This document shows, in pieces, positions 12,633 to 36,104 of a stretch of 36,104 bases of DNA. The notes under the pieces were generated by a model, which saw only the letters and a program-made list of their open reading frames with translations, was not told where the DNA came from and made no database searches. The stretch is from a virus. Made by a program: the position numbers and the translations under genes. Location of the stretch: the IMG/VR virus record IMGVR_UViG_3300046167_000163, positions 1-36,104 of that record; one strand, 5' to 3'. Positions within the stretch are counted from its first letter, which is position 1. The number at the start of each line of letters is the position of its first letter.

Positions 12633-13580
12633 TTATGAAGTTGTACAGTCGGCAATGATGCCGTTTGCAGCTTCATTTTTGGCGCACAAAGTAAGCTCGG
12701 TTACAACTTGGCGAGTAGTGTTGTCGCCAGTTTTGGCCAAAGCCACGTTCTTCGTGCCACGCAGGGAAGCAACTTCCCACATGTTGTCTTGCATGATGAA
12801 CACGTCACGCGAGCGGTTCTCACGGCTTGGCATAAATTCTACGCTTCCCCAAGGGGTTACATATACTGCCAAGGATTTAACAACGCGCTCGTCGCCAGCT
12901 TGTACGCTGGAACGCTGGTTGTTGTTACCAGTGAAGCCCAGAGCTACATTCATTTGGAATGCAGAAAGGTACACTGTGTCTGGCTTACCACCAGCAACCC
13001 AGATTGACTGCATAACAGTGTCAAAGTTGGCTTGTGAGAAAGCAGCTTGTGTGCCGTCTGTACGGGCGTCTGTGCCGTCGCCGGTTGGGTCTGCACCGCC
13101 GGAGCCAGCAACAGTGTTTGTTGTCAACCAAGCTGGTGCGCCAGCAAGTTCACGGGCTGTTGTGGAGTTACCAGCTGCGCGTGCGTTGTTTGCAAACAAA
13201 GCCTTTTCGATGTCCAATTTTTGCTCTTTGGCAATCTTCAAGGTCTGATATGCAATCTCTTTTGCGCGACCTGCATTGTCAACATTATCGTCGGAGTCGG
13301 ATACGACAACGGCGTTTTTGAAGATTTGCGTGTAGTTGCCCAAACGAGTTGTTGCTGCGCGAGCTTCGGCAGTAGTTGTGTCACCCTCAATGTGAGCATT
13401 GGCAGCGGAAGCACGAAGGCTATCTGTTTGCCACTCTACGAGAGTATTCTTTGCGGCCTTTTTAGCAGCTTTGCTGTAAAATGGCGTTTCCTCTGGCGAA
13501 ATGTTGTGGATAACATTGCTGAGGTCTTCACGGATACCGACGGAATCATAGGTATCAAATGTGTTGGTTGGCTGTGCCAT
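12633..13580 (-). CDS. Major capsid protein, SU10/DUF5309-like (HK97 fold)
   Basis: 315 residues. NTFDTYDSVGIREDLSNVIH and ISPEETPFYSK at the start, TRLGNYTQIFKNAVVVSDSD, and a beta-rich end NVALAKTGDNTTRQVVTELT match the SU10-type major capsid family (DUF5309). The central GNNNQRSSVQAGDERVVKSL belongs to the peripheral domain. It forms the icosahedral shell. The scaffold gene lies directly upstream and a strong terminator directly downstream, as expected for the most abundant virion protein. Codon use is regular. Confidence 0.94.
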   Translation of the reverse strand: MAQPTNTFDTYDSVGIREDLSNVIHNISPEETPFYSKAAKKAAKNTLVEWQTDSLRASAANAHIEGDTTTAEARAATTRLGNYTQIFKNAVVVSDSDDNVDNAGRAKEIAYQTLKIAKEQKLDIEKALFANNARAAGNSTTARELAGAPAWLTTNTVAGSGGADPTGDGTDARTDGTQAAFSQANFDTVMQSIWVAGGKPDTVYLSAFQMNVALGFTGNNNQRSSVQAGDERVVKSLAVYVTPWGSVEFMPSRENRSRDVFIMQDNMWEVASLRGTKNVALAKTGDNTTRQVVTELTLCAKNEAANGIIADCTTS

Positions 13581-14583: not shown

Positions 14584-14826
14584 CTACTTCCTTTGTTTGC
14601 GATCCAAAAGCGCCTCTGCTGCAAGTGCAGCGTCGAGTGTCACTTCGATCTGGTTAAGCGCACGGATCATCGCATGCGCCTCTTCACGGGCAGCTACGTC
14701 AGCCGCCCCACTGCTTGCGAAAACCTGCATTTGGTTTTCGCGCACACCCTGCATGAACTGCTGAAATGCAGTATCGTTTTTCAAACGACGGGCCTCTTCG
14801 GCCTCTATGCGTATTTCTGTTGTCAT
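14584..14826 (-). CDS. Small helical head-region protein
   Basis: 80 residues, MTTEIRIEAEEARRLKNDTA at the start, then FQQFMQGVRENQMQVFASSG and a helical end ALAAEALLDRKQRK. Predicted all-helical; small proteins of this type lie between portal and scaffold in many podoviruses and may help head assembly. The start overlaps the portal stop as ATGA. The family is not named with certainty. Confidence 0.75.
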   Translation of the reverse strand: MTTEIRIEAEEARRLKNDTAFQQFMQGVRENQMQVFASSGAADVAAREEAHAMIRALNQIEVTLDAALAAEALLDRKQRK

Positions 14827-16904
14827 TGCTGCACCCCTTGGGCCATGCCGCCAATCATGCGCATTTTATCCTGCTCGGCTTTCACGCGGGCCACATCAAC
14901 GGCTGTGCCGTATTCGCCATAAATCTTTGCCGCGTCTACCATCAGGTCTTGCGCCATCTGATCTCGCTTGAGGTCGTCATTGGCCGCTGCCTTCTGCATT
15001 TCAAGCTGCAACTTGGCCATGTCAGTTTGAGCCTTTGTTTGCGCTTTCATTTGCTCTGCCTGCAAGAACGCAGCGTTTGGATCAGCCGCCTGACCTTGCT
15101 GCGCTTGAGCTTGCTGCTGCATCTGCAACATTTGCATTTCGATCTCAGGTGTAATTGGCGCAAAGTAACGGTCAGCATTGCGTATGCCTGAAACAGCCAG
15201 CTGATCCGCCAGCGTGTTGCGAATGTTGGTCAGGCTAACCAAGCCGTTCATCGGCCCGTAGTTCTGGTAAACCATCGTTTGCATTTGCAGCGCTTGGTTT
15301 AGGGCTATAGCCTTCTCTTCCTCGCGGCCAGTGCCGAGGCCCACATTGATGCTAACGTCAAAACCTGAGTCCCAGACCCGTGGATCAACAGGCACAAACG
15401 TACCGTTCATCCGCATCATTTGCTCTTCGTCTACGTTCTTGCTCATCAAGCGCAGCATAATGCCAAATAAGTCACGCATGCCGTCGGCAAGGTTGCGAAC
15501 CATAACTTCAACCTGACCTGCTGCGGCCTGCACAGTGGCCTGCACAGCGGCCTTTGTGGTTGACTGCATTGCATCAGGGTCTAGGCCCATTGAGGCTCTG
15601 GAAACGCCTGTCTTGCTCTCTACGAGGCCATCTAGGTATGTCAGCGCGCCAAGTGTCTGGCCTGCGGTGAATGGGACAGATAACTCCTGCACAGCGCCAG
15701 CCTGACGCATGCGCACGATTGCTCCGATTTCGTTGTTTAGCACGTCATCAATGTTGACTGCGCCCTCAACAATGCCGAGGCGTGGGTTGTTTGTCATCGC
15801 CACGTTGTCAAGGATGGAGCGCAGGACCGATGTGGCTGCGTCTTGGTCGTCCATAACAATCTCGGCCAGCGAACGGCCATAGAATGTGTGTGGCTCTGGG
15901 TCTATTTCAAACTTGGCAAACGGCAGCTCGTCGCATGGCTCAAAGTCAAGCATTTCGTATGCCGTGCCACCGCATGTGATTTTGTGCAGGATGGGTACGC
16001 CAGTGCCTTCAGCGTCAATGCGCATATACGCTTCTGTCACGGCAACATTGCGCATGGATGGGTCTTGCACGTCCTCATCTGAGGTATCCATATCGTAACC
16101 GCGCCGCTCATATATCTCGGCTTCAGTCATGTCTGAGCCGCTCTCAAAGCTGTCCAAGTTAAGAACCACGTCTGGGTCGTAGCCCATTGCAATCAAATCG
16201 CCTGCGCGCATGTCAGTGCGGTGAGCCACAACGTAGGCGTCGGCAAGGCTGCGAGCGTCACGGTTAATGAAAAACTCTTCAGGCGGAACGCTCTCAATGC
16301 ACAGCTCGCCCATTTCTTTCTGGCGGCTGAGTTTAACGCTGTGAATTGGCAGCTCAATCTCCATGCCCATTGGATCAATCTCAATGGTCATTTCAGCCGT
16401 ATGCTCAAGCACAGTCACGCTGTCATCGTCCAGCAGGTAGGTATATTCGTCGTCAGACAGATCTGTGAACGTGTAAATCTCTGCCTCTGGATATGTCATC
16501 CAGTATGCTTTCACGATGCCTTGCTTTTTAACCAGCGCGTCTTGGAAGGCGTCATTCATCACGCGGTAGCCGTTTAGCCGGGTAAACTCATGGTGCATAA
16601 ACTCAGTGGCCTGCTCGGCCATTGCCACGTCTTCTGGGCCGTGAGGCACAAACTCAACGGGCTTGGCTGTGCTGAGGAATATGCGCATTAGGCTTGGCTT
16701 CACAGAACGCACGGTATCCCGTACCTTTGTGGCTACAACCTTGCTGCGGCCTTCCTCGTAACCAAGGTCAACCTCGCCATCGTAGTAGCGCTGGGCTTTG
16801 ATCCGATCATCGCTGATCTCGCCCTCAACAAAGTCCACCGCGTCCGATATTGCGTCTTGGACAATGCTTTCGATTTCGCTGCGTGATTTTGGTTTAAGTT
16901 CCAT
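14823..16904 (-). CDS. Portal protein, P22-like
   Basis: 693 residues, close to the 725 of P22 gp1. The N-terminal part (RSEIESIVQDAISDAVDFVE, AQRYYDGEVDLGYEEGRSKV, KVRDTVRSVKPSLMRIF) is typical of large podovirus portals. A wing domain with VVAHRTDMRAGDLIAMGYDP and a crown/stem region with YGRSLAEIVMDDQDAATSVL follow. The C-terminal 120 residues form a Gln-rich helical barrel (QMLQMQQQAQAQQGQA). Twelve copies would form the DNA entry ring. The preceding gene in transcription is an injected-protein candidate, unusual for a portal gene. Confidence 0.95.
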   Translation of the reverse strand: MELKPKSRSEIESIVQDAISDAVDFVEGEISDDRIKAQRYYDGEVDLGYEEGRSKVVATKVRDTVRSVKPSLMRIFLSTAKPVEFVPHGPEDVAMAEQATEFMHHEFTRLNGYRVMNDAFQDALVKKQGIVKAYWMTYPEAEIYTFTDLSDDEYTYLLDDDSVTVLEHTAEMTIEIDPMGMEIELPIHSVKLSRQKEMGELCIESVPPEEFFINRDARSLADAYVVAHRTDMRAGDLIAMGYDPDVVLNLDSFESGSDMTEAEIYERRGYDMDTSDEDVQDPSMRNVAVTEAYMRIDAEGTGVPILHKITCGGTAYEMLDFEPCDELPFAKFEIDPEPHTFYGRSLAEIVMDDQDAATSVLRSILDNVAMTNNPRLGIVEGAVNIDDVLNNEIGAIVRMRQAGAVQELSVPFTAGQTLGALTYLDGLVESKTGVSRASMGLDPDAMQSTTKAAVQATVQAAAGQVEVMVRNLADGMRDLFGIMLRLMSKNVDEEQMMRMNGTFVPVDPRVWDSGFDVSINVGLGTGREEEKAIALNQALQMQTMVYQNYGPMNGLVSLTNIRNTLADQLAVSGIRNADRYFAPITPEIEMQMLQMQQQAQAQQGQAADPNAAFLQAEQMKAQTKAQTDMAKLQLEMQKAAANDDLKRDQMAQDLMVDAAKIYGEYGTAVDVARVKAEQDKMRMIGGMAQGVQQ

Positions 16905-30028: not shown

Positions 30029-30648
30029 TTAGTAAGCCCTTATTTTCATGCGACGGCCTGATCCGCCAAATTTAGCTTTCTCGCTTTCTGCGTTTATAGC
30101 ATCAATCGCGCTTTGATACAAAGCAGCCCAGACCTGCAAGCGCGCATCATCCTTCAGATACGGAGCGGAATGTATGAGCGAGCCATACAAATACGCGTCA
30201 GGATAATGCTCAAGCAACCAGTTGCTTGTGTTGCTGTCACTCAACGCAGGCAATTCAGATATATAATACAACTCCGCAGTGTAAGTGCCAGCTGGCGCAG
30301 GAAAGATCTCAATCTCACCAGCAGTAATCGCATAGTAAGCTGGCTCTCCGCTGGTGTTGGCTCTGTTGTACTTGCGGTCAAGTAATTGAAACTGGCTAAT
30401 TAATTCAAGCGGGCGTGACTCGCCTGACGTAATGTAAAACCGAATGGCCTCAACAAAGTCAGCAGGTATTGCGCTGTACTGCGTGTCAAGTTCCGCAGTG
30501 CTGCGCTTTCCTGCCGCCAGTGACGAATGTCGCGAGACAAGTTTGATTCAGCAAGCGATATAAATGTTGGAGCTACAGTATCTAAATCATCACGGTTCAA
30601 AAAGTCCGTGATATTAGATTTTAGCTCTGCGTAAGTTGTGATTGCCAT
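30029..30648 (-). CDS. Neck/adaptor protein (P22 gp4-like, DUF6682), one apparent frameshift
   Basis: From ATG 30648 the frame gives MAITTYAELKSNITDFLNRD, DTVAPTFISLAESNLSRDIR, HWRQESAAL and TAQY, then shifts out. Adding one C near 30470 gives TAQYPADFVEAIRFYITSG, the usual continuation (...LPADFLE...), and runs on through GEIEIFPAPAGTYTAELYYI to the end at 30029, about 206 residues. The 82-residue and 80-residue frames are its two halves. The family joins portal to nozzle in podoviruses. The span (620 nt) is one base short of a codon multiple. TTGCCA at its start also serves as the -35 of the opposite small gene. Confidence 0.88.
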
Positions 30649-30696: not shown

Positions 30697-30843
30697 ATGA
30701 TTGATGCAGATTTGGCTAGGGAGCTGATAATACTCAAGGCCAAGGACTTGGGTATGGACGAAAACAAACTTGACGCATTGGATGAATTAGTTTGCAAAAT
30801 GCTAGAAATTGATGACGCCGATCCACTCATTTTTCCATCCTAG
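30697..30843 (+). CDS. Small acidic gene running against the late block (moron-like)
   Basis: 48 residues: MIDADLARELIILKAKDLGM, then DENKLDALDELVCKMLEIDD and ADPLIFPS. Acidic and amphipathic helical, coding-like. GGGAGAG stands 6 bases before the ATG, and a near-consensus promoter lies upstream, so this is an independently transcribed gene. Its end overlaps the 3' end of the ART-like gene on the other strand by 17 bases. AACC-TCTGG-GGTT followed by ATTTTTT (about 30869-30888) is a possible weak terminator. The 60-residue leftward frame at 30648-30830 is its shadow. Function unknown. Confidence 0.72.
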   Translation: MIDADLARELIILKAKDLGMDENKLDALDELVCKMLEIDDADPLIFPS

Positions 30844-32866
30844 ACAAGTAGCTTAAAATACCCTCTAAAACCTCTGGGGTTATTTTTTGTGCTGGCATCT
30901 TTGTTTTTATAGCGTGAGTCTTGTGAGCCTCATTTAACGGCTGACCACTTTTTGTGACCTTGCCTTCCATAGCGTCATAAACGTCTCGGAAAAGCAAACC
31001 CTGCGGCACAGGCGGTAATGAGCCAAGATATTCCCCAGCAATTTGCGTATTATATGTCGAGTGAGGAACGCTTGCTCGAGGCAGGTTTCCTTTGGGGCTA
31101 TTGAACATTAAGGGCGAAGATGTATCAACTCTCGCTGCACCAAGGCCAAACATGCCAGCAGGCATGTCACGTTGTGTGGGGTCTGTAACGCTGTAGCGAG
31201 CCTCCGCCGGGCTTGGAAAGCCTTTAGCTTGCATAGGCGCACTGTCCATCAAGCGAATAAAAGATTTTCTTTTAGGAGATGTTGTAGTTTCAGCCCACTC
31301 CCTAATCTTCGGAGACAAGACGCCTACAAAGTCAGGGTCAATTGACTTCATAATGTCGTCAAATTCTTTGGCTGATTTTTTAGTTATCTTTGCGCTCTTA
31401 ACCAATTCAGCCATTGCCGCGCCAGTCATCGTAGCAAAGTCGTTGGCGTCAGGTGCCATACTTCCGGTAAGTCCAAGAATGTCAGCGCCGTCAAATTGCT
31501 CAGCGGCTTTTGCGGCCTCTTTATCAATACGGGTAATGATGTTTTGGTTGGATGCCCATATAGAGTTATCTGCTTGAGCTGCTGGCCCAACCATAAAATC
31601 AACTCCGCCTTCAGTATAAACGGGCTGGTCAAAATTTACATCATTAACACCCTCAACAAGCAGCCCGCGTGATGTTCTGTCGCCGTAAAACGGAAGAACA
31701 ACTTTACCCTCAGTCTCCTCCCAAGACATAGGCCGTCGAGAAAGATTTTCACCAGTGTCTGTTGACCTTACGTCTGTGTCGGAAACCCTGCGGTCCCTCA
31801 TGCGCGTCTTTTGATAACCAAGCGGGTCTAAATCAATTTTGTTCGCTTTGCGCAGATCTTCCGCAATCGCAGAAGATAAAAGACTTGCAGAACCGGACCT
31901 ATTAGCCGCCATTATGCTCGGGCTGTATTCATCTTCAAACGCAGCAAAACGGCTGCGAAGTACCGCAGGATCTCCAGCCGACCTATCGGTCAACATAATG
32001 TTACTAATTGAACCTCTATCTTCAATGGCGTTTACATATGGGACGTGCGTAAACCCGCTATCAGTTAAATCTTTTCTGAACGATACCAGCGCTTCTTCAA
32101 GGTCAGAAAAATTATTTTGATCTGCATAATTATTCAATGCCTCAATTATTTCTGACTCTTGGAACGGGCTACCATCTTGATTTAAAAATGGTTTATCCAT
32201 TCTTGCTTTTAGAGGAATGGTGGCCGACGATTTGAAATCATTTGCCTCCTCTAAAGACATATTCAGCAACCTATCTTGAGAAGTTTTTAAATCCTGCCCA
32301 CTATAAGTATTAACTCTATCCTCGGCAGCCTCTCGAGTTCCAACGTGAACCCCAAGCCGATCTAGCCTTGACGCGCCACTGCCAACGGGGCCAAGTTTGT
32401 AATCAAACACATCACCCTGCAAAACAGCATCGCTACCCGGCTGGCCGCGTAGCGAATGATAAACATCTTCTGAAAACAAACTTTGCGCGTTTGGATTTGA
32501 CCTCACACTGCCAGATCTCAAGGCTCCAGTCGGGCTGGGCAGAACGGCGCCGCCTCCCATCGCCAATCCAGCAGTTCCAAGCGCTTCTGGGATAATGTCC
32601 TGTTCAGAAATTAAACCTTGAGATGCTGAATATGGAGCATCAATAGCCTTAGCCAACGGGGCTAAGAGGCCAGCCAACATATTACCAATTCCTTCATACT
32701 GAACAGTGTCAGTACCATAGACTGGCTCTTTAGAAAGAAGCCCGCCCATAATCGGCCTTCGACCCGCAGCTGAAAGCTCTGCTTCATTTTTACGAACAAT
32801 ATCGTAAAGAAAGGAAAATGGACTAGCTTGCTCTCGGTAATACCTTAGCTCGTTAGGATCAGCCAA
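30827..32866 (-). CDS. Large protein with ADP-ribosyltransferase-like (polyvalent) domain
   Basis: 679 residues. Residues about 134-320 follow the ART-like pattern of phage/plasmid polyvalent proteins: VYHSLRG (135-141), GVHVGTREAAEDRV (172-185), TIPLKARMDKPF (217-228), GFTHVPYVNAIEDRGSISNI (271-290) with a candidate catalytic Glu, and AVLRSRFAAFEDE (301-313). The N-terminus has MGGLLSKEPVYGTDTVQYEG and a Gly-rich hydrophobic patch (GNMLAGLLAPLAKAI, LGTAGLAMGGGAVL). The C-terminal half has no family I know. Placed between terminase and adaptor genes, it may be packaged and injected to modify host proteins or RNA. ART activity is inferred and the catalytic triad is not certain. Confidence 0.7.
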   Translation of the reverse strand: MADPNELRYYREQASPFSFLYDIVRKNEAELSAAGRRPIMGGLLSKEPVYGTDTVQYEGIGNMLAGLLAPLAKAIDAPYSASQGLISEQDIIPEALGTAGLAMGGGAVLPSPTGALRSGSVRSNPNAQSLFSEDVYHSLRGQPGSDAVLQGDVFDYKLGPVGSGASRLDRLGVHVGTREAAEDRVNTYSGQDLKTSQDRLLNMSLEEANDFKSSATIPLKARMDKPFLNQDGSPFQESEIIEALNNYADQNNFSDLEEALVSFRKDLTDSGFTHVPYVNAIEDRGSISNIMLTDRSAGDPAVLRSRFAAFEDEYSPSIMAANRSGSASLLSSAIAEDLRKANKIDLDPLGYQKTRMRDRRVSDTDVRSTDTGENLSRRPMSWEETEGKVVLPFYGDRTSRGLLVEGVNDVNFDQPVYTEGGVDFMVGPAAQADNSIWASNQNIITRIDKEAAKAAEQFDGADILGLTGSMAPDANDFATMTGAAMAELVKSAKITKKSAKEFDDIMKSIDPDFVGVLSPKIREWAETTTSPKRKSFIRLMDSAPMQAKGFPSPAEARYSVTDPTQRDMPAGMFGLGAARVDTSSPLMFNSPKGNLPRASVPHSTYNTQIAGEYLGSLPPVPQGLLFRDVYDAMEGKVTKSGQPLNEAHKTHAIKTKMPAQKITPEVLEGILSYLSRMEK

Positions 32867-33017: not shown

Positions 33018-33206
33018 TCACAGTTCGCCTAAATCATCCATAATCTTTTCCATGCGGGAAGACAGCTTCCAATGGCCGGCGCGCCAGCGAGCCGCAAATT
33101 GCGCTTCCTCTAAACTCAAGCCTTTGCCGATGTATGTCTTAATCCATTGATTCATACGGATATTTTTCATCTTGGGCGACAGCTTGTGAAACGGAACCTG
33201 CTTCAT
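33018..33206 (-). CDS. Small basic protein after the large terminase
   Basis: 62 residues, MKQVPFHKLSPKMKNIRMNQ, then WIKTYIGKGLSLEEAQFAAR and WRAGHWKLSSRMEKIMDDLG. Basic N-terminus and two amphipathic helices. The start overlaps the terminase stop (ATGA), so it is made with terminase. It could help packaging or bind DNA, but I recognise no family. Confidence 0.7.
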   Translation of the reverse strand: MKQVPFHKLSPKMKNIRMNQWIKTYIGKGLSLEEAQFAARWRAGHWKLSSRMEKIMDDLGEL

Positions 33207-34603
33207 GCGATACCTTTTAAATTACGCTTGAGACTTTGCGTCCAGCTGGACATAGAGCCTGACAGTGCAGTCGCAGCATCGCTGGCCATTGTCAGGCATA
33301 AAGCATCTGCAAGGTCAGGTGACTTCAAACCGCGCTTGCGCATCTCATCCTTGCTCTCAGCCTTCATCTTGCCCGATGACGTGAAGCTATACCGGATCGC
33401 CGTCAATTCAGCCAACAGCTGGTCATCCTTCGGCAACTTGCACGAACGATCCTCAAGCCAACCCTTCGTCTTAAACCAAAGCTCACTGCGCAAGTTCATA
33501 TGCGTCTTACCCATGGCCGGTGCCTCGCCAACATTAATCCCTCTGACAGGCGCACCAAGCTCACGCAATCTATCAACAACGCCGCCGCCAACGCCAATGC
33601 TGTCAACAAGTATTTCCTTCGGACGAGCGCTGGGAGGCAAACCCTCAAACTCAGCCATCACCCGGCCGACAGTCTGCATCAGATCCAACCCCTGCCAGCT
33701 AGTAATCTCAGTCACCACATTGCCATACCGCTTGCACAGCGCAGTCTTATCCGTACCAAAGCGCGCAACGTCCAAACCCCAGATAGGCTTCTCATCCGGC
33801 GTCACCTCAATGTCACGATGAATTGCACTCTCAGCCAAGTGAAACGGAATGATCGTGTCATCGTCCGCCATCGGGAACTCACCAAGCACGCGAATCCTAA
33901 ACGCGTTTGACTCCTCCCCATATCTAGCACGCATCTCGTCAACAAACTCATCGCTGACCAGCGGACTGTCGATGCAGGACCAACGCCGCGTCCACCAGCT
34001 GTCTGCCATCCGCGTCTGACTCTCATAAAACGTACCAGACGAGCGCGTTGGGTTGCTCAGCAAAATCGTAGTCGCAGCGTGGCCAGACATCGAGCCAGCA
34101 GCAGCCTCAAACACCTTCTCAGGCACACCAGAAGCCTCGTCCACAACCAACAGCACATTCTCCGAGTGAACCCCAGCCAGCGCCTCCGGCGTCTCTGCCC
34201 GGCTCGTCCGAGCCGAAATAAACGCCTCACTCGGCGCTGCATTCAACTCAACTCGATCAGACTTAACCGTAAGCAACACCTTCAACTGCGGGGGCAGCTC
34301 GTTAATCCAACGCTTCAACTCCGCAAACAACGCATCAAACAACTGACCACTGGTCGGCGCTGTCACAACAACCTTATTCGGAAAGCGCAACAAAACAAAC
34401 CACAGCATAATCCAACTAGCCGACGTGGACTTACCCGTGCCGTGGCCGCTGCGAATGCTAACCTTGCGCTCACCGTCTGCAACAGCCCGCAGAAACTCAG
34501 CCTGATAATCGTGCGGAGTAGCGCCCAGCACTTCCTGCACAAACAACGCAGGGTCGTCGCGGTAACGCAGCACAAACTCCTCAAGCGGATTATCATTGCT
34601 CAT
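33203..34603 (-). CDS. Terminase large subunit
   Basis: 466 residues from ATG 34603, which overlaps the TerS stop with GAGG nine bases upstream. Walker A RSGHGTGKST (residues 51-60), Walker B LLVVDEASG, the coupling motif ILLSNPTRSSGTFY, and the RNase-H-like nuclease residues WGLDVARFGTDKT, EILVDSIGVGGGVVDRL and SPDLADAL are all present. It pumps DNA into the head and cuts concatemers. Complete domain set and usual length. The longer frame to 34684 lies inside TerS. Confidence 0.96.
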   Translation of the reverse strand: MSNDNPLEEFVLRYRDDPALFVQEVLGATPHDYQAEFLRAVADGERKVSIRSGHGTGKSTSASWIMLWFVLLRFPNKVVVTAPTSGQLFDALFAELKRWINELPPQLKVLLTVKSDRVELNAAPSEAFISARTSRAETPEALAGVHSENVLLVVDEASGVPEKVFEAAAGSMSGHAATTILLSNPTRSSGTFYESQTRMADSWWTRRWSCIDSPLVSDEFVDEMRARYGEESNAFRIRVLGEFPMADDDTIIPFHLAESAIHRDIEVTPDEKPIWGLDVARFGTDKTALCKRYGNVVTEITSWQGLDLMQTVGRVMAEFEGLPPSARPKEILVDSIGVGGGVVDRLRELGAPVRGINVGEAPAMGKTHMNLRSELWFKTKGWLEDRSCKLPKDDQLLAELTAIRYSFTSSGKMKAESKDEMRKRGLKSPDLADALCLTMASDAATALSGSMSSWTQSLKRNLKGIA

Positions 34604-35096
34604 CGGTGACATCCTCGTAATCCGCGTCAATAGCCATTGCCTCACGCTGGCGGTCCTCAGCATCAATCTGAGCCAAGTCAGCATTAACCTTGCGTAACGC
34701 GTCCAAGTGCATATCGCTCACACTAATCGTAACATTGGTCTGCGGCCGGTTGCCGTAGCGCTCCTGATTATACGAGCCAGCCATAAATTTGCGCCACTGA
34801 ACCTTCTCGCGCGTCGCAGCAATCTCTTGCGTTGAGCTGCCGCCGTCCAGCGCGTCAACCATCTCCAAACCCTGCTCAACCAACGCATCAGCAGCCGTCA
34901 GCTTCGCGCTCTCCATCGCCGCCTTGTACTCCGGCACAGTATGCAAACTGTTTCGCAAATACTCCCGGCTACACTCAAACTCTTTCGCCATCGCCGTCAC
35001 CGTGGTGCCAGATGACAGCCGATCAAATATATATTCAGCGCCGCCATTCTTGGCGACCTCAGCTAAAATGCGTTTGCGTAAAGCCTTCCCGGCCAT
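34593..35096 (-). CDS. Terminase small subunit
   Basis: 167 residues from ATG 35096 with GGGAG eight bases before it. The N-terminal KRILAEVAKNGGAEYIFDRL, GTTVTAMAKEFECSREYL is a helix-turn-helix, followed by the central helical oligomerisation region (ADALVEQGLEMVDALDG, TREKVQWRKFMAGSYNQERY) and an acidic end DADYEDVTDEQ. This is the layout of small terminases that recognise the packaging site. Overlaps TerL by 11 bases. The 279-residue frame starting further upstream crosses the HNH gene and is not used. Confidence 0.9.
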   Translation of the reverse strand: MAGKALRKRILAEVAKNGGAEYIFDRLSSGTTVTAMAKEFECSREYLRNSLHTVPEYKAAMESAKLTAADALVEQGLEMVDALDGGSSTQEIAATREKVQWRKFMAGSYNQERYGNRPQTNVTISVSDMHLDALRKVNADLAQIDAEDRQREAMAIDADYEDVTDEQ

Positions 35097-35166
35097 CGTG
35101 GTAACTCCCGTTTTTTTAAATTTTACTCTGAGTGAGCATCGGTTGGCAAGAGGGGGCCGGGGGGGG

Positions 35167-35763
35167 CTACCTATAACCAAAGCCGGCAACGCCGTCGCGG
35201 CACTTGCGCTGGATCGTGCCAGCAGCAACGCCATGCTCATCGGCAGCCAACGCAGCAGAGGCAAACTCGCCCAGCGGCGTAAAGACTGCACGCGCACGAG
35301 GGTGACTCGACCGATCCCGCAAGTGGTCAGCTCGTCCGGGCCGACGCCGACCCTTCGCATCCATGTCAGCCATGTTGTCCTTGTGACTGCCGCCGCGAAG
35401 GTGAGCGACATTGCAGCAACTCGGGTTGTCACAAGTGTGCATCACGACGTCATGCAGGCCATTGCCGGCAAGGCGGTAAACCATACGGTGAGCCAAGATT
35501 GAGCGGTCCAAAGCATTAAACATACCATAGCCACCCTTAGTCTTACCCCCCGTCCACTCGTGGCAGCCGTCGCCAGTCGCGTCAATCTTGCTCGTAAACC
35601 TGTGAAGCCAGAGGTGCTTGTTAGCCAGCGCTAGAGCCTCGCCCTCACCTCGCGGGCGGCGGAACTCCAAGCCGCCCTTCTGCTGGATGCGGCGCGCACG
35701 CATATAACACGCTGGACACAAGCCACGCGCCATGATGTCTTCTCGTTCACAAGATCTGCACAT
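35167..35763 (-). CDS. HNH endonuclease beside terminase
   Basis: 198 residues. An N-terminal Cys4 zinc ribbon (CRSCEREDIMARGLCPAC) precedes an HNH_3-type core: CHEWTGGKTKGGYGMF, AHRMVYRLAGNGLHD, VVMHTCDNPSCCNVAHLRGG and SHKDNMADM. The end (ASAALAADEHGVAAGTIQRK) is a NUMOD/IENR-like HTH DNA-binding motif. Either a terminase-associated nuclease needed for packaging, as in HK97-like phages, or a homing endonuclease. GGAGGG lies 9 bases upstream. It is the first gene of the late block, adjacent to the junction. Confidence 0.9.
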   Translation of the reverse strand: MCRSCEREDIMARGLCPACYMRARRIQQKGGLEFRRPRGEGEALALANKHLWLHRFTSKIDATGDGCHEWTGGKTKGGYGMFNALDRSILAHRMVYRLAGNGLHDVVMHTCDNPSCCNVAHLRGGSHKDNMADMDAKGRRRPGRADHLRDRSSHPRARAVFTPLGEFASAALAADEHGVAAGTIQRKCRDGVAGFGYR

Positions 35764-35837: not shown

Positions 35838-35863
35838 GCGTGTGTGCGGAAAACTACACACGC
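35838..35863. other. 8-bp hairpin at the left boundary of the right terminal repeat
   Basis: GCGTGTGT (35838-35845) and ACACACGC (35856-35863) are perfect inverted arms around GCGGAAAACT. The terminal repeat starts exactly at the right arm, so the left arm is unique sequence. This is where a terminase cut or processing hairpin would be expected. Structure seen directly; role inferred. Confidence 0.6.
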
Positions 35864-36104
35864 ACACCCCCGTCGAAACGCTGACCGGGGGGGATATTTG
35901 GTCATCGTTTAACAGAAAAATGTTATAATCAGTCATATGTAAAGTCACGACCTCAATGTTTACAATGACTTGGCTCGTTTCGGCGTTATTGTTAACTGCG
36001 CCAGCACCAGTCAAACACAACATGTAGTATTGAGGACTTGTAATTGAACGCTTGTTCAATTAAGCGAGCGCACCCAGCGCGGCGCTGCCAACCAGTGTCG
36101 CGGA
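35856..36104. repeat. Right copy of the direct terminal repeat
   Basis: Repeats positions 1-248 with one inserted G (CACCAGTCAAAC here, CACCATCAAAC in the left copy). Length 249 bases is in the range of podovirus terminal repeats. The sequence ends inside what is the GGAGCGCTCC palindrome in the left copy. Confidence 0.93.

Follow-up and report, generated by a model that had tools for sequence, protein, structure and literature searches.

Between the terminase and neck genes of a small (~36 kb), probably marine phage lies a gene whose product was proposed, in a first-pass annotation of the DNA, to be an ADP-ribosyltransferase (ART) injected into the host. The locus raises the question of whether the protein contains an ART, whether this ART could be active and whether it would travel with the virion. 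The gene is found in IMG/VR record IMGVR_UViG_3300046167_000163, whose 36,104 nucleotides were analysed as a whole and are here called the window. A 249-bp direct repeat (99.6% identity) occurs at both record ends, at ~1-248 and 35856-36104, so that the phage genome is probably complete, as a circularly closed assembly of ~35.9 kb; the circular junction is spanned by the contig of a relative (L034). The gene and its genomic neighbours are:

30827..32866, minus strand: gene of the carrier (polyvalent) protein, 679 aa, TTG start, open frame
33203..34684, minus strand: terminase large subunit (TerL), upstream neighbour, PHROG 2 terminase, E 6.5e-43
34593-35432: terminase small subunit, upstream
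30029..30648, minus strand: gene for a neck/virion structural protein, downstream neighbour, with PHROG 2941 matched in two frames
14823-16904: portal gene, farther downstream of the 679-aa gene
12633-13580: capsid gene, farther downstream of the 679-aa gene

The proposed location between terminase and neck genes was borne out, with TerL upstream and the PHROG 2941 neck gene followed by a PHROG 240 head protein downstream; a scaffold gene also lies farther on, together with portal and capsid. Compared with L003 and L006, the neck gene has lost 1 nt and is frame-shifted, which may be a sequencing error. The upstream portion of the frame for the terminase small subunit is overlapped by an HNH endonuclease gene (window 35167-35763, minus strand).

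The four sequence motifs and the Gly-rich patch on which the ART proposal was based are all present on the minus strand of 30827-32866, in the order given for them. What that annotation missed is that the ART makes up the middle third of the protein only, as a module that is exchanged on a carrier. The protein is divided as follows:

32531..32866, minus strand: N-terminal segment of type N1, residues 1-112, RExxSPF..GRRPxxGGL
32540..32578, minus strand: hydrophobic Gly-rich segment GTAGLAMGGGAVL, residues 97-109, at the 5' edge of the module slot
31916..32494, minus strand: ART module of type A, residues 125-317, from hhalign and fold matches of the AF2 model
32453..32464, minus strand: strand-1 motif VYHS, residues 135-138, with H137
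32315..32353, minus strand: strand-2 motif GVHVGTREAAEDR, residues 172-184, with H174, G176 and T177
31997..32050, minus strand: THVPYVNAIEDRGSISNI, residues 273-290, with Y277, N279, E282 (candidate catalytic) and S288
31934..31963, minus strand: VLRSRFAAFE, residues 302-311, end of the ART module
31877..31909, minus strand: junction AANRSGSASLL, at the 3' edge of the module slot
30830..31831, minus strand: C-terminal domain of the carrier, conserved, residues 346-679, without a Pfam name

The N1 segment is 55-68% identical in L012, L013, L024 and L028, other carriers having unrelated N-termini, and a similar Gly-rich segment precedes the slot in carriers of the N1 and N4 types. Most type-A carriers keep VLRSRFAAFE in the form V(L/I)RS(R/K)FA.F, and L058 keeps part of it; modules of types A-F are followed by a junction resembling AN[RAK]S....[LV]L. 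The C-terminal domain is 63-96% identical among the IMG/VR relatives listed. The AF2 model of the full-length protein (pLDDT 50) is too poor for any claim on the carrier fold.

The window protein gave no match in Pfam (even at E 10), PHROG or PDB sequence searches. With the module, tblastn against phages and plasmids returned nothing or chance-level matches; a scan of genome contigs gave no confirmed relative, and PDB profile searches with module and with carrier gave chance matches only. The window member falls below the curated cut-off of the Pfam family ART-PolyVal (PF18760), homologous modules in L043, L050 and L051 lying above it. A pattern scan with GxH[VF]GT..AA..R identified two ART-like proteins, L039 and L043, and others were obtained by alignment and pattern searches. 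With an HMM built from eight other phage ARTs, the window protein reached 52.7 bits, whereas the highest-scoring of 2000 shuffles reached 11.8. Because these eight had partly been picked by the window's own motifs, the comparison of profile with profile, using Pfam-validated domains, is the cleaner test: the type-A carrier modules matched three such ART-PolyVal domains at 97.5% (E 7e-12, 141 columns, hhalign) and a wider ART set at 99.2% (E 2.6e-19). The motifs are therefore ART-like beyond chance, as had been suggested; of the ART-family search envisaged as a check, the part run with the window sequence alone was silent in Pfam, and the part run with a profile of the protein and its relatives succeeded.

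A structure prediction was also envisaged as a check; the AF2 model of residues 125-335, built from a 14-sequence alignment, has a pLDDT of 72.6 (>90 across much of the core) and a pTM of 0.72. Its leading PDB fold matches, modest in strength (best E 0.018, TM <0.5), are the RES toxins MbcT and Xre-RES, NatT, tankyrase and ParT, all members of the ART superfamily, and among the predicted viral proteins of BFVD it matches several named ART-PolyVal phage proteins. The module is thus predicted by modelling to have the ART fold, and residues ~125-315 are almost certainly a divergent ART-PolyVal domain. That the motifs arose by chance in a middle region that is no ART would agree with the lack of a direct Pfam match; it is hardly credible, being already contradicted by the profile comparison (E 7e-12) and opposed by the fold search and by conservation in independent phage genes.

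In IMG/VR, the full-length protein and its C-terminal domain, used as queries, yielded 101 loci, corresponding to 54 distinct usable relatives in addition to the window. Residues 346-679 are common to all 55 distinct carriers and the preceding part varies. The slot holds the window-type ART (A) in 14 distinct carriers, the window included, ART-like modules of types C-F or a type B with an HGT motif in others, and no module in 29 of the 55, which makes the ART dispensable for the carrier. ART-PolyVal was the best sub-threshold Pfam match of the C, D, E and F modules; hhalign aligned type E to ART at 85% and type F weakly (35%), with no ART support for types C, D or B, and on account of this mixed outcome types B-F are termed ART-like only. 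Modules with VYHGG... were seen in the same slot at L098:3536-3913 and L102:789-1217, in genes whose C-terminal domain is ~99% identical to that of type-A carriers. Several ART-less carriers (L002:987-1376, L023, L029, L120) have hydrophobic N-termini of the form xPIIGDxxxxxExY ... GLxPxIGDAA, pre-toxin or membrane-like by eye, for which weak DUF4112 matches were the only ones obtained.

Slot content differs between carriers with nearly the same C-terminus: type A in L095 and E in L098 (99.4% identical), A in L105 and F in L102 (98.8%), none in L013 and B in L007 (99.1%), C in L012 and D in L024 (97%). In nucleotide comparison, L097 and L098 share 98.3% identity over 5 kb past the slot and 95% upstream of the gene, the 5' half between being almost wholly unrelated, and homology of the window with L034 runs through the start codon (window-rc 3245), stops, and restarts 20 nt ahead of the C-terminal domain. 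On a quick tree of the C-terminal domain, in which several forks are weak, the module state changes at least 14 times. Type A was found behind two N-terminus types as well as in an unrelated gene of ~1000 aa adjoining a portal gene (L058-L062), and in a 197-kb virus record a match to this ART lies within a 6.5-kb gene after the terminase. The frequent exchange of the module suggests that the phages adapt in this way to differing hosts or defences.

Published polyvalent ARTs use a His in strand 1, a Tyr in strand 2 and an Asp in strand 5 (PMC5512222). The residues invariant in both ART alignments, across carriers and unrelated phage proteins, are H137, H174, G176, T177, P226, Y277, N279, E282 and S288; D283 is not invariant, being Gly in L043 and L111/L112. 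The conserved set H137, H174 and E282 therefore differs from the H-Y-D triad: of the features of the HYD2/polyvalent clade the strand-1 His is present (H137), the strand-2 Tyr is replaced by H174, and the invariant acid is E282, not D283. E282 is the best candidate for the catalytic acid. In five of the seven usable module pairs dN/dS is 0.02-0.07, the other two giving 0.15 and 0.71 (the latter for L111/L112), both at low dS; the ART module is under purifying selection. Along with the profile comparison, the fold search and the conservation of H137, H174 and E282, this upholds the suggestion that the ART is of the polyvalent-protein kind.

The module would probably be catalytically active. A dead ART fold with a binding or structural function would be in line with the departure from H-Y-D (H174 in strand 2), with the position of E282, which falls in a loop between strands of the AF2 model, and with the abundance of module-less carriers; the invariance of H137, H174, Y277, N279 and E282 across unrelated carriers and the strong selection on the module make it improbable.

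Delivery with the virion is suggested by genomic context, by a pattern in the literature and by a gene fusion. In 52 of the 54 relatives the carrier gene is preceded by TerL, followed by a portal or neck gene, or both, and in some lineages it lies 46 nt before the portal. In the distant homologue MW202675 the carrier domain is fused to InPase PF18823 (E 2.4e-47), a domain of polyvalent proteins (PMC5512222). Phage ARTs have been placed in terminase/portal contexts from which head packaging was inferred (PMC9503650, PMC5512222), and ~44% of them occur in contexts suggesting it (PMC9503650). As in polyvalent proteins, at least two domains, the ART module and the carrier domain, are joined in one polypeptide beside virion genes. 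A search for virion proteomics of any carrier relative found none (CRP-902 was looked up). Delivery of the ART with the virion is hence favoured, though not by much, so that of the proposed injected ADP-ribosyltransferase the ART assignment was substantiated and the injection is argued circumstantially from the 52 of 54 neighbourhoods, the two publications and the InPase fusion.

The ART may instead be real and active in a late role within the infected cell, acting, for example, on host proteins or the packaging machinery or shielding packaging proteins from host immunity. The late-gene position fits synthesis during assembly, and countering of immunity against portal or terminase has been raised as an alternative (PMC9503650), yet packaging is favoured by the polyvalent InPase fusion and by what has been published on genes of this sort, which leaves this role unlikely, if the most serious of the competitors. 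Far less probable is an action against competing phages or on behalf of a lysogen rather than at entry: module exchange resembles that of polymorphic toxins, HYD2-type ARTs are common to phages and polymorphic toxins (PMC9503650) and the hydrophobic N-termini of some carriers (IIGDxxxAxExY) resemble pre-toxin segments by eye, but no immunity gene was recognised beside the carrier, no secretion signal was identified and the location is the packaging/head region.

The preferred reading, with a probability of roughly 0.6, is that of a virion-associated small polyvalent protein with an exchangeable effector, a packaged, injected and NAD+-using ART. The carrier, composed of a conserved C-terminal domain of head/packaging context and a middle slot for an ADP-ribosyltransferase of the ART-PolyVal kind, would be made late alongside the head genes, would be packaged or portal-associated and would then enter the host along with the DNA, where the ART may modify a macromolecule by means of NAD+ and H137, H174 and E282; host transcription, translation or defences had been put forward as possible targets.

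Packaging is proven for Alt of phage T4, whereas the window protein is placed in the virion by inference. To our knowledge, ARTs injected from the head, T4 Alt apart, have hardly been tested, although they are expected to be common. The mode of action considered here resembles the one proposed for Alt, an ART that would enter the cell from the virion together with the DNA (PMC5512222); Alt falls in the R-S-E clade, unlike the window module, whose conserved residues are H, H and E, with no R-S-E triad. ART-PolyVal (PF18760; Iyer et al. 2017, PMC5512222) shares with the window module the order YH[GS]..GxH[FV]GT..AA..R..P..Y.N..ED.GS.S, the fold, the occurrence in phage genes near head genes and an alignment along the domain with Pfam-validated members; the window member differs in the strand-2 His in place of Tyr and in the invariant acid, E282 and not Asp, and its 679-aa protein has a single effector, unlike very large multi-effector proteins.

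Among the remaining systems, the RES-domain and ParT toxins (MbcT, Xre-RES, ParT, NatT) are the leading PDB fold matches to the module, at an identity of ~10%. These toxins belong to toxin-antitoxin pairs, whereas no partner gene was recognised beside the window ART. In Roseobacter phage CRP-902 (gp72), phage C72C1 and MW202675 the C-terminal carrier domain is 25-30% identical and its genes lie near terminase, portal or head, but Pfam recognises no ART in them and MW202675 has InPase instead. Polymorphic toxins also combine a conserved carrier with swapped effector modules; here, in contrast, the slot is mid-gene in a phage packaging region and the recognisable modules are ART-like.

Polyvalent ARTs are known, and what is new is a divergent H-H-E subgroup and, in small phages, the exchange of modules in a single slot of an unnamed carrier. 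It is put forward tentatively, at somewhat less than even odds, that small (~36 kb), probably marine phages possess a virion protein dedicated to delivery, whose single slot takes exchangeable effectors; H-H-E and other ART types would be swapped in and out of it between close relatives, on a carrier domain that had no name before. Some phages that are nearly identical are distinguished in a single packaging-region gene by the ART module in it or by the lack of one, and they form natural pairs for isolating what a single putative injected effector does; the unnamed carrier domain offers a handle for finding more such effectors. One further phage protein, of 1288 aa (L071), contains a type-A-like ART and a second region, VFHGGP..., that looks like another ART.
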